Shown here: in pieces, positions 880-64,000 of the stretch | Position numbering within the stretch: the stretch's first letter is position 1 | How the letters are laid out: each line of letters starts with the position of its first letter | Assembly: GCF_023023025.1 (NCBI RefSeq) | Contig: NZ_CP095481.1 | Coordinates: 2,418,001 to 2,482,000, forward strand | Source of the DNA: Amycolatopsis sp. WQ 127309 | GTDB taxonomy: Bacteria; Actinomycetota; Actinomycetes; Mycobacteriales; Pseudonocardiaceae | Direction: 5' to 3' | DNA: 64,000 nucleotides | Translations under genes and position numbers: made by a program | The notes under the pieces: model-generated | What the model was told of the DNA's origin: nothing | The model's database searches: none | The model's input: only the letters and a program-made list of their open reading frames with translations

Positions 880-1437
880 TCACCGGGCGCGAGCGCCCGA
901 TTTCGCCGTCAGCCGAACTTCGAGCCGCACCGGCAGGGCGTCGACCTCCAAGGCCTGGCGCAACCGCGGGACGGCGTGCTCGGTGATCCGGGCGCGGATC
1001 GCCCCCGCGTCGGCCTCGGCGTCGGTCGTGACGATCAGGAACAGTGCCGGCGCCTCGCGCGGCCCGGTGAGCCAGGCCGACGCCGACCGGACGCCGTCGT
1101 AGCCCTCGACGTCGGCCGCGACCGGCGCGGCGGCCGTCGACGAGTCCAGCGTGGTCGCGCCCTCGGCCTCCTCGGTCCGCCAGGCGACGGTCTTCGGCCG
1201 CCGGAACGCCTGGGCCGTCAGCCAGCGCAGGCACAACAGCCCCAGCACCACGGCGACCGCGATCGCCGCGTAGAACACCCAGGTCGGCGGCGCCGTCGAG
1301 CCGGGGACCAGCGAAGACGCCGGGTCGAGGACGTGCAGCCGCCCGAAGTGGGTGGCCAGCGCGAACCCGCCGGCGGCGAGCAGCACCAGCCCGATCAGGG
1401 CGAGCAGGGTGCGGTTGAGCGCGGCGGGCCGGTTCAT
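880..1437 (-). CDS. AmaP-like alkaline shock membrane anchor protein
   Basis: This 185-residue protein has two N-terminal transmembrane helices (about 10-30 and 55-75) followed by a cytosolic Asp23-like alpha/beta domain. The architecture matches AmaP, which tethers Asp23 to the membrane in Firmicutes and is found with Asp23 paralogues in actinobacteria. It is the last gene of the Asp23 operon and its start overlaps the stop of the DUF6286 gene, which indicates translational coupling. The likely role is membrane anchoring of the Asp23 proteins encoded upstream. Function is inferred from architecture and context. Confidence 0.7.
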   Translation of the reverse strand: MNRPAALNRTLLALIGLVLLAAGGFALATHFGRLHVLDPASSLVPGSTAPPTWVFYAAIAVAVVLGLLCLRWLTAQAFRRPKTVAWRTEEAEGATTLDSSTAAAPVAADVEGYDGVRSASAWLTGPREAPALFLIVTTDAEADAGAIRARITEHAVPRLRQALEVDALPVRLEVRLTAKSGARAR

Positions 1438-1955
1438 CGCGCACCTCGCACGCGGACGCGGACCCGCGGCGGCGTGGCCAGATCGACCTGGCCGAGCCGC
1501 GTTTCGAGCGCGGAGCGGACGGCGTCGGCGAGCCCGTCGGTGCGCGTCCGCTGGGTCTTCACCGTCACCCGCACGGTGCGGCGACGCAGCTTGAGCGCGG
1601 CCGCCGAGACGCCGTCGACGTGCGCGGCGGTCGCCCGCAGCGACGTCCGCAGGCCGTGGCGCGTGGTGCCGGTGTCGAAACCCGGCTCCGGCGCCAGCGG
1701 CAGGACGACCGGGCGGCCGCGCAGCAGCGCCGCCGCCAGCAGCACGAACCCCACGAGAACCGCGGCCCCGCCCCCGACGAGCACGGGCAGTTCGTTCCAG
1801 GAGGTGTCGTGGACGCGGGCGGCGACCGCGTCGTAGGACAGCACCGGTGGCACGCCCAGCAGCCGCTGCACGAGCGCCGTCACGACGAACGCGCAGGCGG
1901 CGAGCAGGACGAGCGCGGTGAGCATCGCCGGCACGCTCCGCCGTGGCCGCCTCAT
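1434..1955 (-). CDS. DUF6286 domain membrane protein of the Asp23 operon
   Basis: The 173-residue product has two hydrophobic helices (about 11-30 and 58-80) and a C-terminal basic domain with alternating strands (LRRRTVRVTVKTQRTRTDG) like the AmaP and Asp23 fold. This is the layout of DUF6286 proteins, which occur in actinobacterial Asp23 clusters. It overlaps its neighbours on both sides by 4 bases, so it is translated as part of the same unit. It probably forms a membrane complex with the AmaP-like protein and Asp23; no enzymatic motif is visible. Confidence 0.7.
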   Translation of the reverse strand: MRRPRRSVPAMLTALVLLAACAFVVTALVQRLLGVPPVLSYDAVAARVHDTSWNELPVLVGGGAAVLVGFVLLAAALLRGRPVVLPLAPEPGFDTGTTRHGLRTSLRATAAHVDGVSAAALKLRRRTVRVTVKTQRTRTDGLADAVRSALETRLGQVDLATPPRVRVRVRGAR

Positions 1956-2305
1956 CGGACCCGCCGCTTCGGCTGCTCGACCGGCGGCAGCGCGATCGTG
2001 ATGTCGACGCGCTGGGTGCGCAGGCCGGTCAGTTCGGTGGTGCGGCCGAGCAGGTGGGCCCGGACCCGGTCGGCGGTGCCGGTGACGGGCGCCGGGTAGA
2101 CCACGGGCAACCGGATGTCCACAGTGGTCACTTCACCGTCCACTGTGGCCTTGGCGGTGACGTCGGCGGCGACGCCGTCGACCTCACGCGCGGCCCGGGC
2201 GGCGATGCGCCCGACCGCCCGCGGCTCGACGGTCGTCTCGCCGCGCTCTTCTTCTTCGACCGTCTCGACGTCGTCGCGGCGGTGCCGCGCGGTGACCGTG
2301 GACAT
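1952..2305 (-). CDS. Asp23/Gls24 family envelope stress protein (copy 1)
   Basis: This 117-residue protein carries the Asp23 signature: the AVGRIAARAAREVDGV helix and then two beta strands ending in RVDITIALP. I start it at the ATG at 2305 because a GGAGG sits 7 bases upstream; the open frame continues further but without such a site. Asp23 is a small cytosolic protein that coats the inner face of the membrane through AmaP and is induced by envelope or alkaline stress. It lies between the DUF2273-type and DUF6286 genes. Confidence 0.85.
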   Translation of the reverse strand: MSTVTARHRRDDVETVEEEERGETTVEPRAVGRIAARAAREVDGVAADVTAKATVDGEVTTVDIRLPVVYPAPVTGTADRVRAHLLGRTTELTGLRTQRVDITIALPPVEQPKRRVR

Positions 2306-2309
2306 GGGG

Positions 2310-2498
2310 TTACCTCCGATCCCGGGCGGCCCCGACGAGGGCGGACAGGTCGAGCTCGCCGTCGGCCCAACGGCCGGCGAGGAGGCCGAGGCCGCCCAGC
2401 ACGAGCACGGCGACAAAAGCGCCGAACCCGCCGAAGGCGGCCGCGAACCCCAGCGCCAGGCCGAAGAGCAGGCCGATCAGGGTGCCGTTCACGGTCAC
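2310..2498 (-). CDS. DUF2273-type small membrane protein
   Basis: This 62-residue protein is almost entirely two hydrophobic helices separated by a short Gly/Phe-rich turn (FGLALGFAAAFGGFGAFV). Its size and its position between two asp23 genes match DUF2273, the small membrane partner in asp23-amaP operons. It overlaps the upstream asp23 gene by 4 bases. It probably helps build the membrane platform for Asp23; this is inferred from context. Confidence 0.7.
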   Translation of the reverse strand: MTVNGTLIGLLFGLALGFAAAFGGFGAFVAVLVLGGLGLLAGRWADGELDLSALVGAARDRR

Positions 2499-2947
2499 AG
2501 CACCCGGTCGCTGGTGACGGGCGCGTCGTCGTCACCCGGGATGTGGACGTCGTTGACGTTGATGTTGACCTCGACGACCTGCAGCCCGGTCATCTGCTCG
2601 ATCGCGGTGATCACGTTGCGCCGCACCGACCGCGCGAGATCCGCGATGGCGACGCCGTACTCGACGACGAGCTGCAGATCGACGGCGGCCTGCTTCTCGC
2701 CGACCTCGACCGAAACCCCCTGGCCGACGCTGGAGGACGCGCCGGGGATGCGGTCGCGCAGGGCGCTCAGAGCGCGAGCGGCCCCGCCACCGCCGAGTTC
2801 GTGCACACCGTTGACGTCACGGGCGGCGAGCCCGGCGATCTTCTGCACGACGGTGTCGGCGATGGTGGTGGTGCCCTGCTTCGAGACGAGCGCGCTGGTG
2901 GCGTCGTTCGCGGTGGTCACCACGGTCTTCTCGGCGGTCGCGGTCAT
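2495..2947 (-). CDS. Asp23/Gls24 family envelope stress protein (copy 2)
   Basis: This 150-residue protein is the best match to canonical Asp23: TIADTVVQKIAGLAARDVNG, a variable loop, and the conserved VDLQLVVEYGVAIADLARSV strand-helix followed by a VVEVNINVNDVHI strand. It is the first gene of the downstream half of the cluster. The ATG follows a GAGGAGG site closely. The 463-base gap before it suggests that it has its own promoter as well as possible read-through from the sigma-factor half. Confidence 0.9.
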   Translation of the reverse strand: MTATAEKTVVTTANDATSALVSKQGTTTIADTVVQKIAGLAARDVNGVHELGGGGAARALSALRDRIPGASSSVGQGVSVEVGEKQAAVDLQLVVEYGVAIADLARSVRRNVITAIEQMTGLQVVEVNINVNDVHIPGDDDAPVTSDRVL

Positions 2948-3410
2948 GGGTCCTCCTCGGGTGTCCTGGGAATGTCCTGGGGAACAAGGCTTTCCGCCTG
3001 GTTCGTAGGTAAGGACACCGGGGATGGGGAATCGTCACTGCCCCGATCGTGTGACGTGGGTCTCGGCTTGGGCCGCTCGTTTCCGCCGCCCCGAAACGCT
3101 GTCGGTGGCGCGGATCCGTGGGCCTCAGGCCGGTTGTCCCCAGGGTGAACCACATGTGGACAACTCGGCGGAATCGGCCGCACGAAACCGGTTTTGTCCG
3201 TGGGTGCCGGTACGCTGGGCGTGGGACGTCCCCCCAGGGAGCGGTGGGGGTAGGTGTGTGTGGGGCTGGGGATTTGCGTTTCGTCGGGCTGCTTGCGGAA
3301 CCGGCGGCACGGCAGCCGGAACGGCCGACACGGCGACGGGAGTGGCCAACACGGCACCCGGGCGCCTTGGCCGCTCCAGTCGGCGAGTTGGCCACCGCCG
3401 TCGTGCGGGG
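2948..3410. other. 463-base non-coding spacer inside the Asp23 locus
   Basis: This spacer separates the two halves of the Asp23 locus and shows no open frame with actinobacterial codon bias. It contains a perfect 9-base inverted repeat, GTGGCCAAC at 3342-3350 and GTTGGCCAC at 3387-3395, and a repeated CAGGACA just upstream of the asp23 start at 2947. It is the expected place for a terminator of the sigma half and a stress promoter of the asp23 half. I could not identify a clear -35/-10 pair. Confidence 0.5.
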
Positions 3411-3707
3411 TCAGGTGAAGGCCGCGCCGTCCAGGTCGGTGACGACCAGGCGCAGGTGGGCGTGCTCCCACTCCGTGCCCACCAGGACCGGGCGGACGGC
3501 TTCCGTCGCGCGGTCCAGCAGTGGGGGGATCGGCAGCCGGGACGCGATCAGGCGGATCTGGACCAGCTCCGGCGTCAGGTCGACCGCCATGCCCTCCCAG
3601 TCCACCGGGAGCCACGTCGTCCCGGCGGAGACCGGGGTCGCCGGGCGGAGGCCCGGGACGCCCTTGATCGCGACGATGATCTTCTCGACCGCTTCGCCCG
3701 CGATCAC
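3411..3707 (-). CDS. Small hypothetical protein coupled to Asp23
   Basis: I read a 98-residue product from a GTG at 3707 that overlaps the stop codon of the upstream asp23 gene (GTGA). It has a VIAGEAVEKIIVAIKGVPGL helix similar to the first Asp23 helix and a late strand HAHLRLVVTDLDG, so it may be a diverged member of the same fold. Another short open frame in this region is out of phase and less plausible. No specific function can be assigned beyond membership of the Asp23 and sigma-factor operon. Confidence 0.6.
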   Translation of the reverse strand: MIAGEAVEKIIVAIKGVPGLRPATPVSAGTTWLPVDWEGMAVDLTPELVQIRLIASRLPIPPLLDRATEAVRPVLVGTEWEHAHLRLVVTDLDGAAFT

Positions 3708-4066
3708 CGGGTCGCCGTTTCGATGTCCATGATGGACACCGACACCTCGTCGACGACCAGGCCGGTCTGCGCGGTGACGTACCGGCTGACCGCGCGCTGC
3801 ACCGACCGGCCGACCGTCGCCGCTTGGTCGATGCCCGACGCGATCAGGTCCACCTGGACGCTCAGCCTGCCGTCCACCGTGCGGACGCGGACGCCGTCGG
3901 CCGGGGCCGGGTCGAGGCCCTTCCAGCGCTGGCGGGCCGCCCGCGTCCACGCCGTCACCAGCCCCCGCAGGCCCGGCTCCAGCCGCACCACGCCCGGCGC
4001 GGTGATCGCCGCCCGGGCCGCCACGCCGGCGATCACCGGGTCGGCGATGACGTACTCCACAGTCAT
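3704..4066 (-). CDS. Asp23/Gls24 family protein (copy 3)
   Basis: This 120-residue product has an Asp23-like plan: IADPVIAGVAARAAITAPGVV, a basic loop, then a strand-helix-strand segment that ends VVDEVSVSIMDIE. Its start overlaps the stop of the zinc-finger/Asp23 hybrid gene and its end overlaps the next small gene, so the four genes from the sigma factor down are translated as one block. It is likely an envelope-stress protein expressed with the sigma factor. Confidence 0.75.
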   Translation of the reverse strand: MTVEYVIADPVIAGVAARAAITAPGVVRLEPGLRGLVTAWTRAARQRWKGLDPAPADGVRVRTVDGRLSVQVDLIASGIDQAATVGRSVQRAVSRYVTAQTGLVVDEVSVSIMDIETATR

Positions 4067-4641
4067 TCCCCTGGCTCCCCGACAGTGTCTTCGTCCTCTT
4101 CAAAAACGTCGTCCACCAGCAGGTCGAGCTTCGCCAGCGTCAGGCCCACCCGGGCCGCGGCCGCCGCGGTCACCCGCTCCCGCACCAGCGACAACGCTTC
4201 ACCGCCCGTAGCGTTCCGCAGACTCACCGCGAGGGTGAGCTGGACTTCGACGACGCCGGCGCCGTCGTTCCGGATCCGGCAGCGCCGGGCGCGAATGCCC
4301 ACGACGGTGTCAGCCGCGTACCGCAGCACCGCCGCCACCGCCTGCTCGCTGATCTCGACGCTCCCGGGTTCCGGGCTCGGCAGCGGCACCATCGAGCCGC
4401 GCCGCACCTCGGCCCGGACCGCCGACATGATCCGGCCGAACAGGTCCGGTGGCGGCGCGTCCGCTTCGGCCACCATCTCGGACGTCGCCTCGCGCAACGC
4501 GAGCAGGCTTTCGCGCGCCGCCCGGCAGTGCGGGCAGGTCAGCTCGTGCTCGTCGGCCAGCCCGGCGCCGACCGCGTCGAGCCGCTCCCACACCTGCTCG
4601 ACATCGCGTTCGCAGGGCAGTTCGTAGTCCGTCATCGCCAT
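4063..4641 (-). CDS. Zinc-finger anti-sigma-like protein fused to an Asp23-like domain
   Basis: The 192-residue protein begins with a putative anti-sigma zinc-binding motif: Cys10, His32, Cys36 and Cys39 in an HxxxCxxC arrangement (HELTCPHC). A helical linker follows, and the C-terminal half (about 90-190) resembles Asp23, with EISEQAVAAVLRYAADTVVGI and two late strands. It overlaps the ECF sigma gene by 10 bases, the classical position for a sigma factor's own anti-sigma. It lacks a transmembrane helix. I infer that it restrains the sigma factor and that the Asp23 part is a sensory or docking domain; that combination is unusual. Confidence 0.7.
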   Translation of the reverse strand: MAMTDYELPCERDVEQVWERLDAVGAGLADEHELTCPHCRAARESLLALREATSEMVAEADAPPPDLFGRIMSAVRAEVRRGSMVPLPSPEPGSVEISEQAVAAVLRYAADTVVGIRARRCRIRNDGAGVVEVQLTLAVSLRNATGGEALSLVRERVTAAAAARVGLTLAKLDLLVDDVFEEDEDTVGEPGE

Positions 4642-5198
4642 GGCTTCATCACCTCCGCCAGCTGTGCCCTGGCCCGCGCGATCCGGCCCCGCACCGCGGT
4701 GCCGTTCACGCCGACGATTTCGCCGATCTCCTCGTAGGACCGGCCGTGCACCTCACGCAGCAGCCAGCACGCCCGTTGCTCCGGGGTGAGCTGCGCCAAG
4801 GCCGTGTTCAACGCCGCGAGCTGGCCGCTCACCTGCGCGGCCCGCTCCGGCTGGAGGTCGCGCCGCGGCGACTCCGCCGTGTCCAGGTCGACGTCGGCCT
4901 GCGGCCGGCGCGCCCGGATGGCGTTCAGGCAGCGGTTCGTCGTGGCCCGGTAGAGCCAGCCGACGAACGCGGCGTCCTCGCCGAGCTGGTCGAGCTTGCG
5001 CCAGGCGTTGAGGAACACCTCCTGCACGACGTCCTCGGCGTCACCGCGGTTCGCGAGCATCTTCGCCGCGAGCCGGAACATCGGGCCCTGGTAGCGCAGC
5101 ACGAGCTGTTCGTACGCCCGGACGTCGCCGTCCCGCGCGCGGCCCACCAGGGTCGCGTCGTCGAGCGGCGTGCCGGGATCCGCGCTGGTCGTCGTCAC
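4632..5198 (-). CDS. ECF-family RNA polymerase sigma factor
   Basis: The 188-residue protein has a sigma region 2 (YEQLVLRYQGPMFRLAAKML, then GDAEDVVQEVFLNAWRKL) and a region 4 helix-turn-helix (LTPEQRACWLLREVHGRSYE, EIGEIVGVNGTAVRGRIARA). These mark it as a group 4 extracytoplasmic-function sigma factor. I choose the GTG at 5198 because GGAGG lies 4 bases upstream; a longer open frame exists but has no such site. It is the first gene of the Asp23 locus and overlaps its putative anti-sigma. It probably drives this locus under envelope stress. Confidence 0.9.
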   Translation of the reverse strand: MTTTSADPGTPLDDATLVGRARDGDVRAYEQLVLRYQGPMFRLAAKMLANRGDAEDVVQEVFLNAWRKLDQLGEDAAFVGWLYRATTNRCLNAIRARRPQADVDLDTAESPRRDLQPERAAQVSGQLAALNTALAQLTPEQRACWLLREVHGRSYEEIGEIVGVNGTAVRGRIARARAQLAEVMKPWR

Positions 5199-5355
5199 GG
5201 CACCTCCTCGGGAAGAGGACACGGGAGCCCGGGAAACGTCACGCACTGATTGTGGGTGACAGCCATCACTCGTGCGAATCCGTGACGAAAGATCACCGCC
5301 GGGGTCCTTCCGGCACCAGGTACCCACCGGGGTGCCACGGATCGGGAGGTGTCCC
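5199..5355. promoter_or_regulatory. Divergent promoter region of the sigma factor and csbD
   Basis: This 157-base region separates the divergent sigma-factor and csbD genes and must hold both promoters. It contains a spaced inverted repeat GTCAC-13-GTGAC at about 5238-5260 and, towards csbD, a GGGTGA that resembles the -10 region of SigB/SigH-type stress promoters. The assignment of individual elements is weak. Confidence 0.4.
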
Positions 5356-5544
5356 ATGTCGCTGGGCGACAAGATCAGCAACAAGGCCGAGGACCTGGGC
5401 GGCAAGGCCAAGGAGACCGCCGGGAACGTCACCGGCGACGAGCAGCTGAAGGCCGAGGGCCAAGGCGACCAGGCGAAGGCGGGCCTGAAGGACGCCGTCG
5501 AGCACGTCAAGGACGCCGCGAAGGACCTCTTCGGCAAGAAGTGA
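5356..5544 (+). CDS. CsbD family stress response protein
   Basis: This 62-residue, highly charged and probably unfolded protein has the typical CsbD layout: SLGDKISNKAEDLGGKAKET, a GDEQLKAEGQ centre, and a Lys-rich end. CsbD proteins are abundant general-stress proteins of unknown mechanism. The ATG at 5356 has a GGGAGG site 6 bases upstream. It is divergent from the envelope-stress sigma factor, which could control it. Confidence 0.9.
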   Translation: MSLGDKISNKAEDLGGKAKETAGNVTGDEQLKAEGQGDQAKAGLKDAVEHVKDAAKDLFGKK

Positions 5545-59972: not shown

Positions 59973-60139
59973 CGCCGACCACCGCCCAGCACCGCCGAGA
60001 GATCCAGCGGCAACGCCCCCAAGCAAGGGGCGCACTTGGTTTCGCCGGGCAGCAGCCGAGCGAACCGCTTGCATTCCGAGCATCGCGAGCGGGTGACCCC
60101 CACTGGCGTTGGTTGCTTGTCATCGTCTAGCGTCTGCAT
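59969..60139 (-). CDS. Small zinc-ribbon protein upstream of TraB
   Basis: The 56-residue product has two CxxC knuckles, CSEC and CAPC, 16 residues apart. It starts at the ATG at 60139 with GAGG 8 bases upstream. Its stop overlaps the TraB-like start (ATGA), which strongly supports it as a real gene. It may bind nucleic acid or the transfer complex; function is unknown. Confidence 0.75.
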   Translation of the reverse strand: MQTLDDDKQPTPVGVTRSRCSECKRFARLLPGETKCAPCLGALPLDLSAVLGGGRR

Positions 60140-60142
60140 GGT

Positions 60143-60259
60143 TCACACCTCGCGGTTGTGGACAGCGCAGGAGCGGCATGGTTGGTAGCCGAGTTTCCGC
60201 TTCTGCGCCTTACGGTTCCGCGCCACCGGAAGAGGACGCGTTTCAGCACCGCACGTCAT
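60143..60259 (-). CDS. Very small Cys-containing protein
   Basis: The 38-residue product (MTCGAETRPLPVARNRKAQK, then a basic stretch and PCRSCAVHNREV) has one CxxC pair and an early Cys that could complete a zinc site with a His. It ends 3 bases before the next gene starts. Size and position suit a mobile-element ORF, but coding is not proven. Confidence 0.5.
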   Translation of the reverse strand: MTCGAETRPLPVARNRKAQKRKLGYQPCRSCAVHNREV

Positions 60260-60293
60260 AGCGCACGGTTTTGCTACAGTGAATGACTTATTG

Positions 60294-60305
60294 TGTGTCT
60301 ACACA
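60294..60305. promoter_or_regulatory. Palindrome TGTGT-CT-ACACA in the AICE
   Basis: This imperfect palindrome lies in an AT-richer 50-base gap between two minus-strand small genes. It is a possible operator or promoter for the genes from 60259 down to int. Confidence 0.35.
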
Positions 60306-60308
60306 GGA

Positions 60309-60560
60309 CTACTCGGGCTTGGACTTCGCAGCCTGGATCGCCGCCGACACCTCCGCCGCTTTGCGTCGTTCAAAGTCTGCCCAATACAGCGCCTCGTGGT
60401 GATGCCCCCGGTCGACGTCGGCGACCGTCTCGTACATCCGCGCGTTGGCCTGCCGAAAGGCCAGCCACGCCGACGGATTCGCCTTGGGCGCGGGCCGGAG
60501 ATCCATCGCGATCTCGTGCGCGTCCCCGAGGGTGCGCGGCTCCTTACGCTTGTTCATCAC
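60309..60560 (-). CDS. Small AICE protein resembling the AMED_5909 family
   Basis: The 83-residue protein has DAHEIAMDLRPAPKANPSAW, FRQANARMYETVADVDRGHH and HHEALYWADFERRKAAEVSA. I associate this pattern, from memory, with the AMED_5909 family of small proteins on Amycolatopsis elements. It is helical and charged. Its start overlaps the end of the next small gene by 17 bases. Function is unknown. Confidence 0.65.
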   Translation of the reverse strand: MMNKRKEPRTLGDAHEIAMDLRPAPKANPSAWLAFRQANARMYETVADVDRGHHHEALYWADFERRKAAEVSAAIQAAKSKPE

Positions 60561-60816
60561 GCACCCGCCGGGCCGTCATGCGGGTTTCGAGGAGCGCCGC
60601 CAGGTCCTCCGCGCCGTCGCGGAGCTGGCGAAGGAACGTCACGCACGCTGGCCACATCGCCGGGTCGTCCGGAGGCCGGAGCATCACCACGCACGGCGCC
60701 CCTTCGAGCACCAGCATCGGTGGGTGCGTCGGCTCCGAACCAGTCTCCTCGACCGTGAGTTCCGCCTGCGGTCCGACGACCCACGTCACGCCGAACCCGT
60801 CCCATCCGGTCGACAT
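60544..60816 (-). CDS. Small hypothetical AICE protein
   Basis: The 90-residue product starts at an ATG with GAGG 7 bases upstream and contains TVEETGSEPTHPPMLVLEGA and FLRQLRDGAEDLAALLETRM, probably a small strand-helix domain. It overlaps the long frame described at 60557-61060, and its codon bias is better than the shared part of that frame. No family is recognised. Confidence 0.6.
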   Translation of the reverse strand: MSTGWDGFGVTWVVGPQAELTVEETGSEPTHPPMLVLEGAPCVVMLRPPDDPAMWPACVTFLRQLRDGAEDLAALLETRMTARRVRDEQA

Positions 60817-61060
60817 GCCCTACCTCATCTCGAATGCCGTACCCGTCGACGCGGGTGTCCCACTTGTCGGCCTGGATCTCGAACGCCTGCGCCGCGGAAA
60901 TGACCGCCGCGTGCGCCCACGCAGGAAGCTCGAACTCGGCCGCAAGGTGACGCCACGCTGCAGCGACCGCCCGCGACACCGACGACAACTCGGCATCCGA
61001 CGCGGTCGGATATCGGGCGTAGGCCAGTTCCCACGCCCGCACCAGCTCCCACCGAGTCAT
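60557..61060 (-). CDS. Hypothetical helical AICE protein with a doubtful C-terminus
   Basis: The frame from the ATG at 61060 encodes 167 residues. The first 80 are convincing: MTRWELVRAWELAYARYPTA, SVSRAVAAAWRHLAAEFELP and AWAHAAVISAAQAFEIQADK. After about residue 85 the frame runs over the 90-residue gene on the same strand and turns into low-complexity Gly/Arg sequence. Either the true gene ends earlier through a frame change near 60820, or the tail is dispensable. It is related to the next gene (61057-61353). Confidence 0.5.
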   Translation of the reverse strand: MTRWELVRAWELAYARYPTASDAELSSVSRAVAAAWRHLAAEFELPAWAHAAVISAAQAFEIQADKWDTRVDGYGIRDEVGHVDRMGRVRRDVGRRTAGGTHGRGDWFGADAPTDAGARRGAVRGDAPASGRPGDVASVRDVPSPAPRRRGGPGGAPRNPHDGPAGA

Positions 61061-61353
61061 GGCATCTCCCCTGGTCGATGGTCCGAATCGGCGCGGCCGA
61101 ACTCCAGGTGCGCCCGCCTCATGAACTCCTCGGCAGCCACCGCCGACGCATGACGCGCCCAGAGCGGTGCAGCCAGATCGGCGGACAAGGCACGCCAGGC
61201 GACCGCCACGGCGTGGTAGGCGAGGGCAAGACGCCGCACTGCTGCCAGATCGCCCGAAGTCGACCTCATCGCGGCGAACAGCGCGGACGTCTGCTCCGCG
61301 TATGCCTCGTTCCACCGAGCGACCGCCTCACGCGACGGCCGCCCCGCCATCAC
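61057..61353 (-). CDS. Hypothetical helical AICE protein, paralogue of its neighbour
   Basis: The 98-residue protein contains YHAVAVAWRALSADLAAPLW and ARHASAVAAEEFMRRAHLEF, which align with AVAAAWRHLAAEFELPAWAH and ISAAQAFEIQADK of the neighbour. The two genes overlap by 4 bases and look like a tandem duplication. It is probably all-helical. Its start overlaps the pra stop. Function is unknown. Confidence 0.65.
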   Translation of the reverse strand: MMAGRPSREAVARWNEAYAEQTSALFAAMRSTSGDLAAVRRLALAYHAVAVAWRALSADLAAPLWARHASAVAAEEFMRRAHLEFGRADSDHRPGEMP

Positions 61354-61823
61354 GCTGCCTTCTGCTGACTGCCCGAGCCCTCACCGGCCGGCGTCTTCGC
61401 GGCAGCCTGCTTCGAGCCAGCACCCCGCCCCGGCTCACGCATACCGGTAGCCCGCAGCACCCAGCCCTGGTACTTGAACTTCTCGCCCATAACCCGAGCC
61501 TCGACCATCAGGCCCTCGAACACGACCGGCCGGAAGTCGAACCCCTGCATCGCCGCCGGAGGCGGAACCGGCTGGACCCGGTCGAGCAGCGTTACAGTGG
61601 CTGACTTGTCGCGGTCCTTCTCCGCCGACGGGTCGGTCACCGTGACCTTCCACTGCGGCAAGCCGGTCTGCTCGTCGATCTTCTGCTTGGGCAGCTTGCC
61701 CCGCGCCTTGTCTTCGTTGGAGACGTACTCCATGTCCGGTGTGACCGGACCGACGATCGCCGCTCCGGCCGGGAACACGACGTCGTGCTCGATCTCAAAG
61801 CGTGTTCCGCGCGCTACTGCCAT
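61350..61823 (-). CDS. pra: Pra-like activator of AICE replication, integration and excision
   Basis: The 157-residue protein has RFEIEHDVVFPAGAAIVGPV, DEQTGLPQWKVTVTDPSAEK and GFDFRPVVFEGLMVEARVMG, the pattern I know from the Pra family of pMEA-type elements. A disordered Gly/Ser/Ala tail follows. In pSAM2 Pra switches on replication, excision and transfer and is repressed by the GntR-type KorSA. Here a GntR gene is divergent and a palindrome covers the pra promoter. The ATG has GGAGGA upstream. Confidence 0.85.
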   Translation of the reverse strand: MAVARGTRFEIEHDVVFPAGAAIVGPVTPDMEYVSNEDKARGKLPKQKIDEQTGLPQWKVTVTDPSAEKDRDKSATVTLLDRVQPVPPPAAMQGFDFRPVVFEGLMVEARVMGEKFKYQGWVLRATGMREPGRGAGSKQAAAKTPAGEGSGSQQKAA

Positions 61824-61881
61824 GTCGGTTCCTCCTGGTCAGGCGCCTCACTCGGCGCTGCCGTGCTTGGCTGACTTGATC

Positions 61882-61910
61882 AGGTTAGCTAGGTTGACTA
61901 GCCAAGTCAA
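61882..61910 (-). promoter_or_regulatory. pra promoter with an overlapping operator
   Basis: On the minus strand the -35 TTGACT (61905-61910) and the -10 TAACCT (61882-61887) are 17 bases apart. The palindrome TTGACT-5-AGTCAA (61894-61910) covers the -35 box and part of the spacer. A repressor bound there should silence pra. Confidence 0.7.
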
Positions 61911-61942
61911 GCAAGTCGGAAGCAGCCTAGGCCGCCAGGTCG

Positions 61943-61972
61943 CCTAGACAAGCTCGGGTCGAGTCCTAGACA
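61943..61972. promoter_or_regulatory. Direct repeat CCTAGACA upstream of the GntR gene
   Basis: CCTAGACA occurs at 61943-61950 and 61965-61972, 22 bases apart or two helical turns, in the shared pra/GntR control region. It may be a second regulator site. Confidence 0.45.
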
Positions 61973-62022
61973 CTGACTTTTGACAACCAGCACGGCCAGC
62001 TGTCACAGACGAAGGAGACACC

Positions 62023-62865
62023 ATGGCACTGGACCCGGACGATCCGCGGCCGCCGTACGTGCAGGTGGCGAATGCTCTGCGAGCGGCAATCCTGACGCGG
62101 AAGTTCACGCCAGGCGACAAGCTGCCGTCCCGAAACGAACTGGCGAAGACGTACAACGTTGCGCCGATGACCGTGCAGAATGCCATCCGCGAACTTCGCG
62201 ACGAGGGCCTAATCGTCTCCCGCCAGGGCAGCGGGGTCTTCGTTCGAGAGCGCACGGAACGCCCTGTCGGACTTCGACCGCACATCGAACGCGCCTTCGA
62301 GGCGGAAGATGTCACGATCGACTTCGCCGGCTTTTCCGGCGAGACCCTTCACGGCGTACTCACCGAGCCGCTAGACAAGATTCGGATTGGCCGGCTACGA
62401 CCGGGGTCGATCACCGTCCGCTTGCTCGTCCCGGACCCGTCGCAACCATGGTCTCTCCCGGTCACGGTAGACGAGCACGCCGACAGCCCGCTCTTCCGCA
62501 AGCGAGCCGAAGAGATCATGCGGCGTCACACCCTAGCCATCGTCGACTCGGTGACCGAACTAGCCGAGATGGGCCTGGTCAACAAGGCCACTGCCCAGAT
62601 TCGCGTGCACCCAGCACCGCCGATGTTCAAGCTCTACCTGATCAACAACGAAGAGACATTCTTCGGCTTCTACCCGGTCCGCGAGCACGTCATCAACTTT
62701 GACGGCGAGACCCAGGCGATGTACGACCTCATGGGCAAGGACGCAATCCTCTTCCACCACTCGATCAACGACGACGACACGTCGACCGGCTCGCAGTACG
62801 TCGACCAGGCGAAGACCTGGTTCGACAGCCTCTGGAACAGCGTCGCCACGGACTACCAGCGGTGA
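62023..62865 (+). CDS. GntR family repressor of the AICE (KorSA-like)
   Basis: The 280-residue protein has an N-terminal GntR winged helix (PPYVQVANALRAAILTRKFT, SRNELAKTYNVAPMTVQNAI, RDEGLIVSRQGSGVFVRERT) and a larger C-terminal domain unlike common UTRA or FadR domains. It is divergent from pra, as KorSA is in pSAM2. It probably keeps the element integrated. The ATG has AAGGAG 6 bases upstream. Confidence 0.85.
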   Translation: MALDPDDPRPPYVQVANALRAAILTRKFTPGDKLPSRNELAKTYNVAPMTVQNAIRELRDEGLIVSRQGSGVFVRERTERPVGLRPHIERAFEAEDVTIDFAGFSGETLHGVLTEPLDKIRIGRLRPGSITVRLLVPDPSQPWSLPVTVDEHADSPLFRKRAEEIMRRHTLAIVDSVTELAEMGLVNKATAQIRVHPAPPMFKLYLINNEETFFGFYPVREHVINFDGETQAMYDLMGKDAILFHHSINDDDTSTGSQYVDQAKTWFDSLWNSVATDYQR

Positions 62866-63533
62866 AAGCCGCGGAGGTGCTCGCCCGTGCACGCGCCCTG
62901 CTCCTCGACTTCGACGGCCCTGTTTGCTCCGTCTTTGCCGGCATCCCCGCGTCCACGGTCGCCAGCCAGCTCCGTGACGTACTTACCGATGGCGGACACG
63001 CGGACCTACCCGAAGCCATCGCGACCAGCGCCGACCCGTTTGACGTTTTCCGGTACGCTGCCATGATTGGCCAAGACGAAGCCCGTTACGTGGAAGCCGC
63101 CTTCGCCGCCCACGAAGTCGAGGCAATCTCCAGCGCAACTCCCGCAAGCGGCGCGCACGAACTCATCGAGGCGTGGCACCGATCCGGTCGGCCACTAGCC
63201 ATCGTCAGCAACAACGGCACGCCAGCTGTCAGCGCTTATCTAGACCTCTACAATCTCCGCGCGTCGATCGACTTCATATCCGCGCGGACCAGCTCGAACG
63301 CTGCGCTGCTCAAGCCGAGCCCCCACCTCTTGCACCAGGCTGTCAGTGCACTCGATGTCACCGCAGGCGAATCCGTGTTTCTTGGCGACTCGACGACCGA
63401 CATCGAAGCCGCCCATGCTGCGGGCGTCCTCTCGATCGGTTACGCGAACAAGCCGGGTAAGAACTACAAGCTCACTGAAGCCGGGGCCAACGCAATCACC
63501 GACACCATTACCGGCCTGGCAACCGTCACATAA
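62862..63533 (+). CDS. HAD-family hydrolase coupled to the GntR regulator
   Basis: The 223-residue protein has HAD motif I LLLDFDGPVCSVF, motif II IVSNNGTPA, a Lys in LLKPSPHLL and motif IV VFLGDSTTDIEAAHAAG. It is a Mg-dependent phosphatase of the phosphoglycolate type. Its GTG overlaps the GntR stop codon (GTGA), so the two are co-translated. It may produce or remove the signal sensed by the regulator; the substrate is unknown. Confidence 0.87.
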   Translation: MKAAEVLARARALLLDFDGPVCSVFAGIPASTVASQLRDVLTDGGHADLPEAIATSADPFDVFRYAAMIGQDEARYVEAAFAAHEVEAISSATPASGAHELIEAWHRSGRPLAIVSNNGTPAVSAYLDLYNLRASIDFISARTSSNAALLKPSPHLLHQAVSALDVTAGESVFLGDSTTDIEAAHAAGVLSIGYANKPGKNYKLTEAGANAITDTITGLATVT

Positions 63534-63721
63534 GAGTGCCACCGGACTCACCCGTTCTACTCAAGCCCGCTGACCCAACCGCGCACGCTGCCGCCTCACC
63601 GCCGTCTAACCCGAACCCCTGCCAACATTTTTCGGCAGAACCCCACCTAGTCATACGTGCACGCTTCGCGTTCGGTTAACAACCTCTCGCCAGCTCATTC
63701 TCAGAGATACATGAGCGGATT
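63534..63721. other. Spacer after the HAD gene
   Basis: About 190 bases without a supported gene. GC content starts to fall here. I found no second copy of the tRNA-Gly 3' end, so no attachment site is marked. Confidence 0.4.
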
Positions 63722-64000
63722 CTACGAGATGACACGAAAACCGCCCTCAAGGAACCTTTTATCAACTTTCGCGGCGTCGTACAGAGCGGCTTTCCAATGA
63801 TGGAAACCAAACTTTCGACGAATCCAATCACTTTGATCGTCTGCAAATTCACCAACACCGTCGGGACCTTCGACGATAAACGTCTTATCCAAGGCCTGGA
63901 GCCGCTCAACGAGTTCTTGAGATGCCAATACTGAATAATGCTCAGAAAGTTCAAGCTTGTCGAAATGATACTCAACGAGCTTGAACCGATCCGTGGGCAG
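63722..64000 (-). CDS. Hypothetical protein, C-terminal fragment
   Basis: The gene enters from the right edge; the last 92 residues are visible, including KLVEYHFDKLELSEHYSVLA, LVERLQALDKTFIVEGPDGV and WIRRKFGFHHWKAALYDAAK. I recognise no family. The DNA is clearly less GC-rich and its third codon positions less biased than the rest of the window, which suggests recent transfer, perhaps as AICE cargo. Confidence 0.55.
   Translation of the reverse strand: MPTDRFKLVEYHFDKLELSEHYSVLASQELVERLQALDKTFIVEGPDGVGEFADDQSDWIRRKFGFHHWKAALYDAAKVDKRFLEGGFRVIS

Follow-up and report, generated by a model that had tools for sequence, protein, structure and literature searches.

The stretch of DNA analyzed here, a window of 64,000 nucleotides from Amycolatopsis sp. 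WQ 127309 (contig NZ_CP095481.1), comes from a genome of 11.13 Mb on one contig, labelled G000, whose closest named relatives are Amycolatopsis. Near the start of this window, a gene for an extracytoplasmic function (ECF) sigma factor is directly followed by a gene for a candidate anti-sigma factor, referred to below as the hybrid, in which a predicted zinc-binding domain is joined to a domain of the Asp23 type. Genes for Asp23 proteins and for AmaP lie beyond it. New in this analysis is an ECF-type promoter motif found at two places, one ahead of the sigma gene and one ahead of the asp23a-AmaP operon, which is a separate unit. The features of the locus are as follows:

5218..5241, minus strand: ECF-type promoter motif TGACG-N14-GTGTC before the sigma gene, starting 43 nt ahead of its start codon
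4632..5198, minus strand: ECF sigma factor, GTG start, 188 aa (Pfam Sigma70_r2 60.5 bits, Sigma70_r4_2 49.4 bits; TIGR02937 104 bits)
4063..4641, minus strand: hybrid, candidate anti-sigma factor, 192 aa; residues 1-83 zinc anti-sigma domain, about 84-182 Asp23-type domain
3704..4066, minus strand: asp23b, 120 aa (PF03780 40.4 bits, cut-off 28); ATGA overlap with the hybrid gene, which it also follows in relatives
3411..3707, minus strand: 98-aa protein without Pfam match; GTGA overlap with asp23b; fourth gene of the core operon, conserved
3014..3037, minus strand: ECF-type promoter motif TGACG-N14-GTGTC before asp23a
2495..2947, minus strand: asp23a, canonical Asp23 (PF03780 107.8 bits, cut-off 28)
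2310..2498, minus strand: DUF2273-like small membrane protein (13.1 bits, under the cut-off of 25.4); position kept in many relatives
1952..2305, minus strand: asp23c (PF03780 28.8 bits, cut-off 28)
1434..1955, minus strand: DUF6286 protein (98.4 bits, cut-off 35)
880..1437, minus strand: AmaP (NF033218 56.6 bits, cut-off 55)

The immediate operon consists of four coupled genes, encoding the sigma factor, the hybrid, Asp23b, and the 98-aa protein. A first-pass annotation, made from the sequence alone, had noted a 10-base overlap between the first two, and indeed the sigma gene ends at 4632 while the hybrid gene starts at 4641. It had also described further Asp23, DUF2273, DUF6286, and AmaP-type genes as following the hybrid. 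This holds for asp23b and the gene of the 98-aa protein, which are coupled to it, but the genes from asp23a to AmaP are set apart by a gap of about 460 bp and have a promoter motif of their own. The identities given to these neighbors were borne out by scores above the cut-offs for the Asp23 genes, DUF6286, and AmaP, but not for DUF2273. The sigma factor resembles ECF sigma factors of solved structure. A CsbD-like gene (5356-5544, plus strand) is divergent from the sigma gene, and neighbors it in many, not all, relatives.

Domain make-up of the hybrid and its pairing with the sigma factor

Sequence comparison supports a hybrid in which an anti-sigma-type zinc domain is joined to an Asp23-type domain. 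The putative zinc site consists of Cys10, His32, Cys36, and Cys39 (an Hx3Cx2C motif with an upstream ligand), the same residues that had been singled out at first, and is followed by helix 4 at residues 67-81. The ligands are invariant across 38 alignment rows. Among the matches listed, out of 326 homologues found, the Cys-His-Cys-Cys (CHCC) set is present in 120/120, of which 112 were recognized by a regular expression and the remaining 8, whose spacer is shorter, by eye. In a profile comparison with a zf-HC2 set of 30 sequences, the N-terminal domain reached an hhalign value of 95.9% over 68 columns (unrelated control sets 1.4% or less), which agrees with the earlier description of the motif as similar to those of zinc-binding anti-sigma (ZAS) factors.

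The C-terminal domain was compared in the same way to three Asp23 sets, with values of 96.9, 96.0, and 97.7%, and again 1.4% or less for unrelated controls; the asp23a profile set included one hybrid open reading frame, the other two sets none. In a Pfam search, neither half of the hybrid reached a cut-off: there was no PF03780 match and no direct match to a zinc domain, and the best match of the C-terminal half was DUF6286, at 17.3 bits and under its cut-off. The Asp23 assignment of this half is therefore based on the profile-profile comparison, together with the PF03780 annotation that is precomputed for some of the listed hybrid orthologues. The Asp23-like domain proposed in the first-pass annotation thus stands by profile comparison, but not by a Pfam match to the protein itself. 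Structure prediction, which that annotation had suggested, gave an AlphaFold2 model of the hybrid alone with two domains and a predicted local distance difference test (pLDDT) score of 87.9. The protein was judged to be soluble from its sequence, by eye only.

A survey of gene neighborhoods, likewise suggested, placed a sigma gene directly upstream of the hybrid gene in 37/37 loci of Amycolatopsis and Nocardia, and in 26/27 loci of a survey across the class; the latter include the locus of the window itself, and also L074, whose protein was taken as an ordinary anti-sigma factor and no hybrid. Given this adjacency and the CHCC ligands of the listed homologues, the pairing of sigma factor and hybrid is not due to chance. 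Each of the 14 named Amycolatopsis loci contains the four-gene core. Across the class, hybrid matches were found in at least 25 of 296 genomes, a lower bound, and removal of one false match (G058) left 24 hybrid genomes. Asp23 was present in all 24, versus 85 of the 272 others (Fisher p 7e-12, kinship ignored). Clear relatives occur in Streptomyces. A zinc-bearing Asp23-type protein from a different genus of the same family (L169) is encoded beside a low-scoring sigma factor.

Placement of the promoter motif

The aligned regions upstream of the sigma genes share a strongly conserved element, CGTGACG-N-GTGTC, which recurs in the alignment of regions upstream of asp23a. A strict motif, drawn from the sigma alignments before the asp23a regions were aligned, has exactly 2 sites in the 11.13-Mb genome, namely the two in the window, at 5218-5241 and 3014-3037, while the reversed control has none. 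A looser motif was fitted to four sites, comprising these two and one ahead of each of two additional Asp23-AmaP operons, at 7.52 and 8.99 Mb. Genome-wide, it has 6 sites including the four fitted (reversed control 0). The fifth lies before a gene for a BrkB-family membrane protein at 10.50 Mb (L117), with the motif starting about 65 nt upstream, and this gene may be a further target; the sixth falls inside an open frame. The looser motif was also sought in 11 more genomes from the genus, which were outside the fit; it has 12 sites, spread over 6 of these genomes, and 8 of the 12 precede asp23a or a sigma gene, while the reversed control has 3.

Among the Amycolatopsis and Nocardia loci, a form of the motif within 150 bp upstream of the gene was found before the sigma gene in 14/14 and 19/23 loci, respectively, and before asp23a in 2/7 other Amycolatopsis and 18/22 Nocardia loci, where shuffled sequences led us to expect about 0.1 or less in each case. 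No motif was found in the same interval before the hybrid gene (0/14 and 0/23) or before asp23b (0/14 and 0/22). The same search in the class set found it before asp23a in 9 of 20 loci.

To compare genotypes, GTGA[C/G]-N13-17-GTGTC was sought within 450 bp ahead of the asp23a domain in the class loci. It was present in 15/20 hybrid-positive loci versus 7/60 hybrid-negative ones (shuffles 0.07 and 0.23). In 6 of these 7 hybrid-negative loci, which belong to family f21, asp23a adjoins a gene for a high-scoring sigma factor (profile score of 200 bits or more), with a diverged partner that the hybrid search had missed. When the loci are sorted by the adjacent sigma factor, the motif is found before asp23a in 21/28 with a high-scoring sigma factor, 0/10 with a low-scoring one, and 1/42 with none (21/28 versus 1/52, Fisher p 2e-12, kinship ignored). 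Without the three loci of the order of the window, the comparison stands at 18/25 versus 1/52 (p 5e-11). Subject to the cautions on cut-off and tree given below, this sorting ties the motif to sigma factors of this kind rather than to Asp23 as such. The tie to the Asp23-AmaP genes that had been read from the locus is thus upheld by conserved neighborhood, shared promoter motif, and co-occurrence.

Zinc-less and fused relatives

In the f21 genomes (L073, L075-L077), the protein encoded after the sigma gene is devoid of the zinc motif but has retained one helix along with the Asp23 domain, and all four of these loci have the promoter motif before asp23a. At another locus (L071, genome G171), the sigma factor and an Asp23 domain are encoded in one open frame (1471-2451, minus strand) without a zinc domain; the bounds of this fusion are counted from an ATG that we chose, and a sequencing fault may have produced it. 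An AmaP-like gene lies just upstream of the fusion. The genome of the window itself contains a second system at 5.64 Mb (L004), with a sigma factor at 39% identity, a zinc-less protein of helix and Asp23-type domain, asp23a, and DUF2273-like genes.

From sequence similarity judged by eye, the helix retained in the zinc-less relatives would correspond to helix 4. In published work on anti-sigma domains, which combined complexes and coevolution, helix 4 is reported to account for 12 of the 14 top predicted contacts with the sigma factor and for most of those predicted with sigma2, and zinc is described as able to be structural, as in RsiW (PMC7406223). In view of these reports and of the relatives that lack the zinc site or are fused, what stays constant in the system appears to be the Asp23 domain together with helix 4, rather than the zinc site. 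As relatives that lack the zinc site keep the rest, the site is probably mainly structural.

Known systems, a proposed circuit and its alternatives

The pairing of an ECF sigma factor with an anti-sigma factor of the Asp23 family is already known in outline. Groups ECF286 (with an example in Streptomyces rimosus) and ECF292 (Mycolicibacterium cosmeticum) adjoin soluble Asp23-family proteins that are predicted anti-sigma factors (Casas-Pastor 2021, cited in a 2022 review, PMC8999054), and by gene neighborhood and this published description the locus studied here resembles them. As excerpted, the review leaves both groups undiscussed for want of experimental data; it describes neither a mechanism nor a feedback from the layer for them, and names no target promoter or zinc domain. 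The statement in the first-pass annotation that no regulator of this kind had been described was thus too broad as regards the pairing, which is in print, but remains apt, as far as the excerpts of the review go, for the mechanism, the target promoter, and the fusion of zinc and Asp23 domains. The likely regulon and the circuit are the parts added here. A literature search showed no other account of an Asp23 anti-sigma factor among the papers that it listed.

Two other systems offer partial parallels. ChrR, a soluble class I ZAS factor with a second domain, likewise has an N-terminal zinc anti-sigma domain, but its C-terminal domain is cupin-like (PMC8999054), while that of the hybrid is of the Asp23 type and some relatives of the hybrid lack the zinc site. 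In Staphylococcus aureus, Asp23 forms filaments that AmaP anchors to the membrane, and the cell wall stress response is induced when either protein is lost (PMC6954212). As here, Asp23 and its anchor are encoded in one operon; the account as excerpted mentions no ECF sigma factor or Asp23-type anti-sigma factor, and it termed the molecular function of Asp23 still unclear in 2020. In Streptomyces venezuelae, an Asp23 gene was lowered after ethanol shock, and changes in ECF sigma factors were reported separately; the two are not linked in the excerpts of that study (PMC9769785).

Taken as a whole, the locus is, on balance, probably a switch of ECF sigma and anti-sigma factor through which the Asp23-AmaP membrane layer is made and probably also read. 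Judging from domain identity and gene coupling, the hybrid is very probably the cognate anti-sigma factor, with the zinc domain clamping the sigma factor. In this genome, the conserved placement of TGACG-N14-GTGTC, which goes with sigma factors of this kind, makes it likely that the motif serves the sigma factor as promoter both for Asp23-AmaP operons and for the four-gene operon in which it is itself encoded. The Asp23-type domain of the anti-sigma factor could plausibly be the sensory part, a step that we hold just short of probable: it would co-assemble with the anchor or with subunits of Asp23, and the level of free sigma factor would then follow how much of the layer there is, or what state it is in, in a homeostatic loop. 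The first-pass annotation had similarly proposed that the Asp23 part may dock on the layer, whose disturbance would release the sigma factor. The simplest circuit of this kind would be negative feedback through co-assembly. More tentatively, the coat may control its own synthesis, with an anti-sigma factor of the coat fold co-assembling with the coat, so that occupancy would set free sigma, and with zinc-free and single-chain sigma-Asp23 forms existing beside the hybrid.

Several observations weigh against this interpretation. The looser motif was not found at asp23a of the second system at 5.64 Mb, which has its own sigma factor, or at an Asp23 gene at 7.85 Mb (L007), and 5/7 other Amycolatopsis asp23a regions have GGGTC in place of GTGTC. 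The genes from asp23a to AmaP accompany the core in only 4/14 named Amycolatopsis loci; they are absent in 7/14, and asp23a stands alone in 3/14. In the class set, the motif precedes the sigma gene in only 4/25 loci, 3 of which are from the order of the window, and because of this rarity autoregulation is supported for Amycolatopsis and Nocardia only. The motif is missing before asp23a in 7/28 loci with a high-scoring sigma factor; the 200-bit cut-off was chosen after the scores had been seen; and high-scoring sigma factors do not form one clade in a midpoint-rooted tree, as those of f21, most of them with motif, group with low-scoring ones. The p-values given are too small, since related genomes are not independent. 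Finally, a fold search with the N-terminal model of the hybrid gave no significant match.

Among the alternatives, the Asp23-type domain may merely position the anti-sigma factor at the membrane or act as a second clamp on the sigma factor, with the signal coming from elsewhere, for example through degradation of the anti-sigma factor. The direct sigma-Asp23 fusion of L071 fits an intramolecular clamp, and the zinc-less proteins keep both helix and Asp23 domain; still, we consider this rather unlikely, as it leaves unexplained the kinship of the domain with the products of the motif-bearing genes. Anti-sigma factors of the RsrA kind are thiol/zinc redox sensors whose oxidation frees the sigma factor. 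Were the hybrid such a sensor, oxidation of its CHCC site would release the sigma factor and the Asp23 domain would be a passive tether. Zinc-bearing homologues show little or no variation in the CHCC ligands, and soluble zinc anti-sigma factors have often been tied to redox sensing (PMC7406223, PMC8999054). However, f21 relatives without the zinc site keep sigma factor, Asp23 domain, and promoter motif, most of the motif sites found belong to Asp23 operons or sigma genes, and zinc can be structural, as in RsiW (PMC7406223), all of which makes this reading quite unlikely. A chance neighborhood of an ordinary ECF pair and Asp23 genes, to which the 7 named Amycolatopsis loci without local asp23a-AmaP genes would lend themselves, is very improbable, being already contradicted by an association conserved over many families, by the motif at unlinked Asp23 operons, and by the relationship of the hybrid to Asp23.

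If the coat does control its own synthesis in this way, the loop would represent a general circuit for Asp23 homeostasis in actinobacteria. A sigma factor with an inhibitor of the Asp23 type and with apparent targets in Asp23 operons would make the state of the layer open to a reporter, and would give a testable role to ECF systems that the 2022 review leaves aside for want of data.

Elsewhere in the window, positions 60001-64000 have a GC content of 0.636, the lowest among its sixteen 4-kb blocks.

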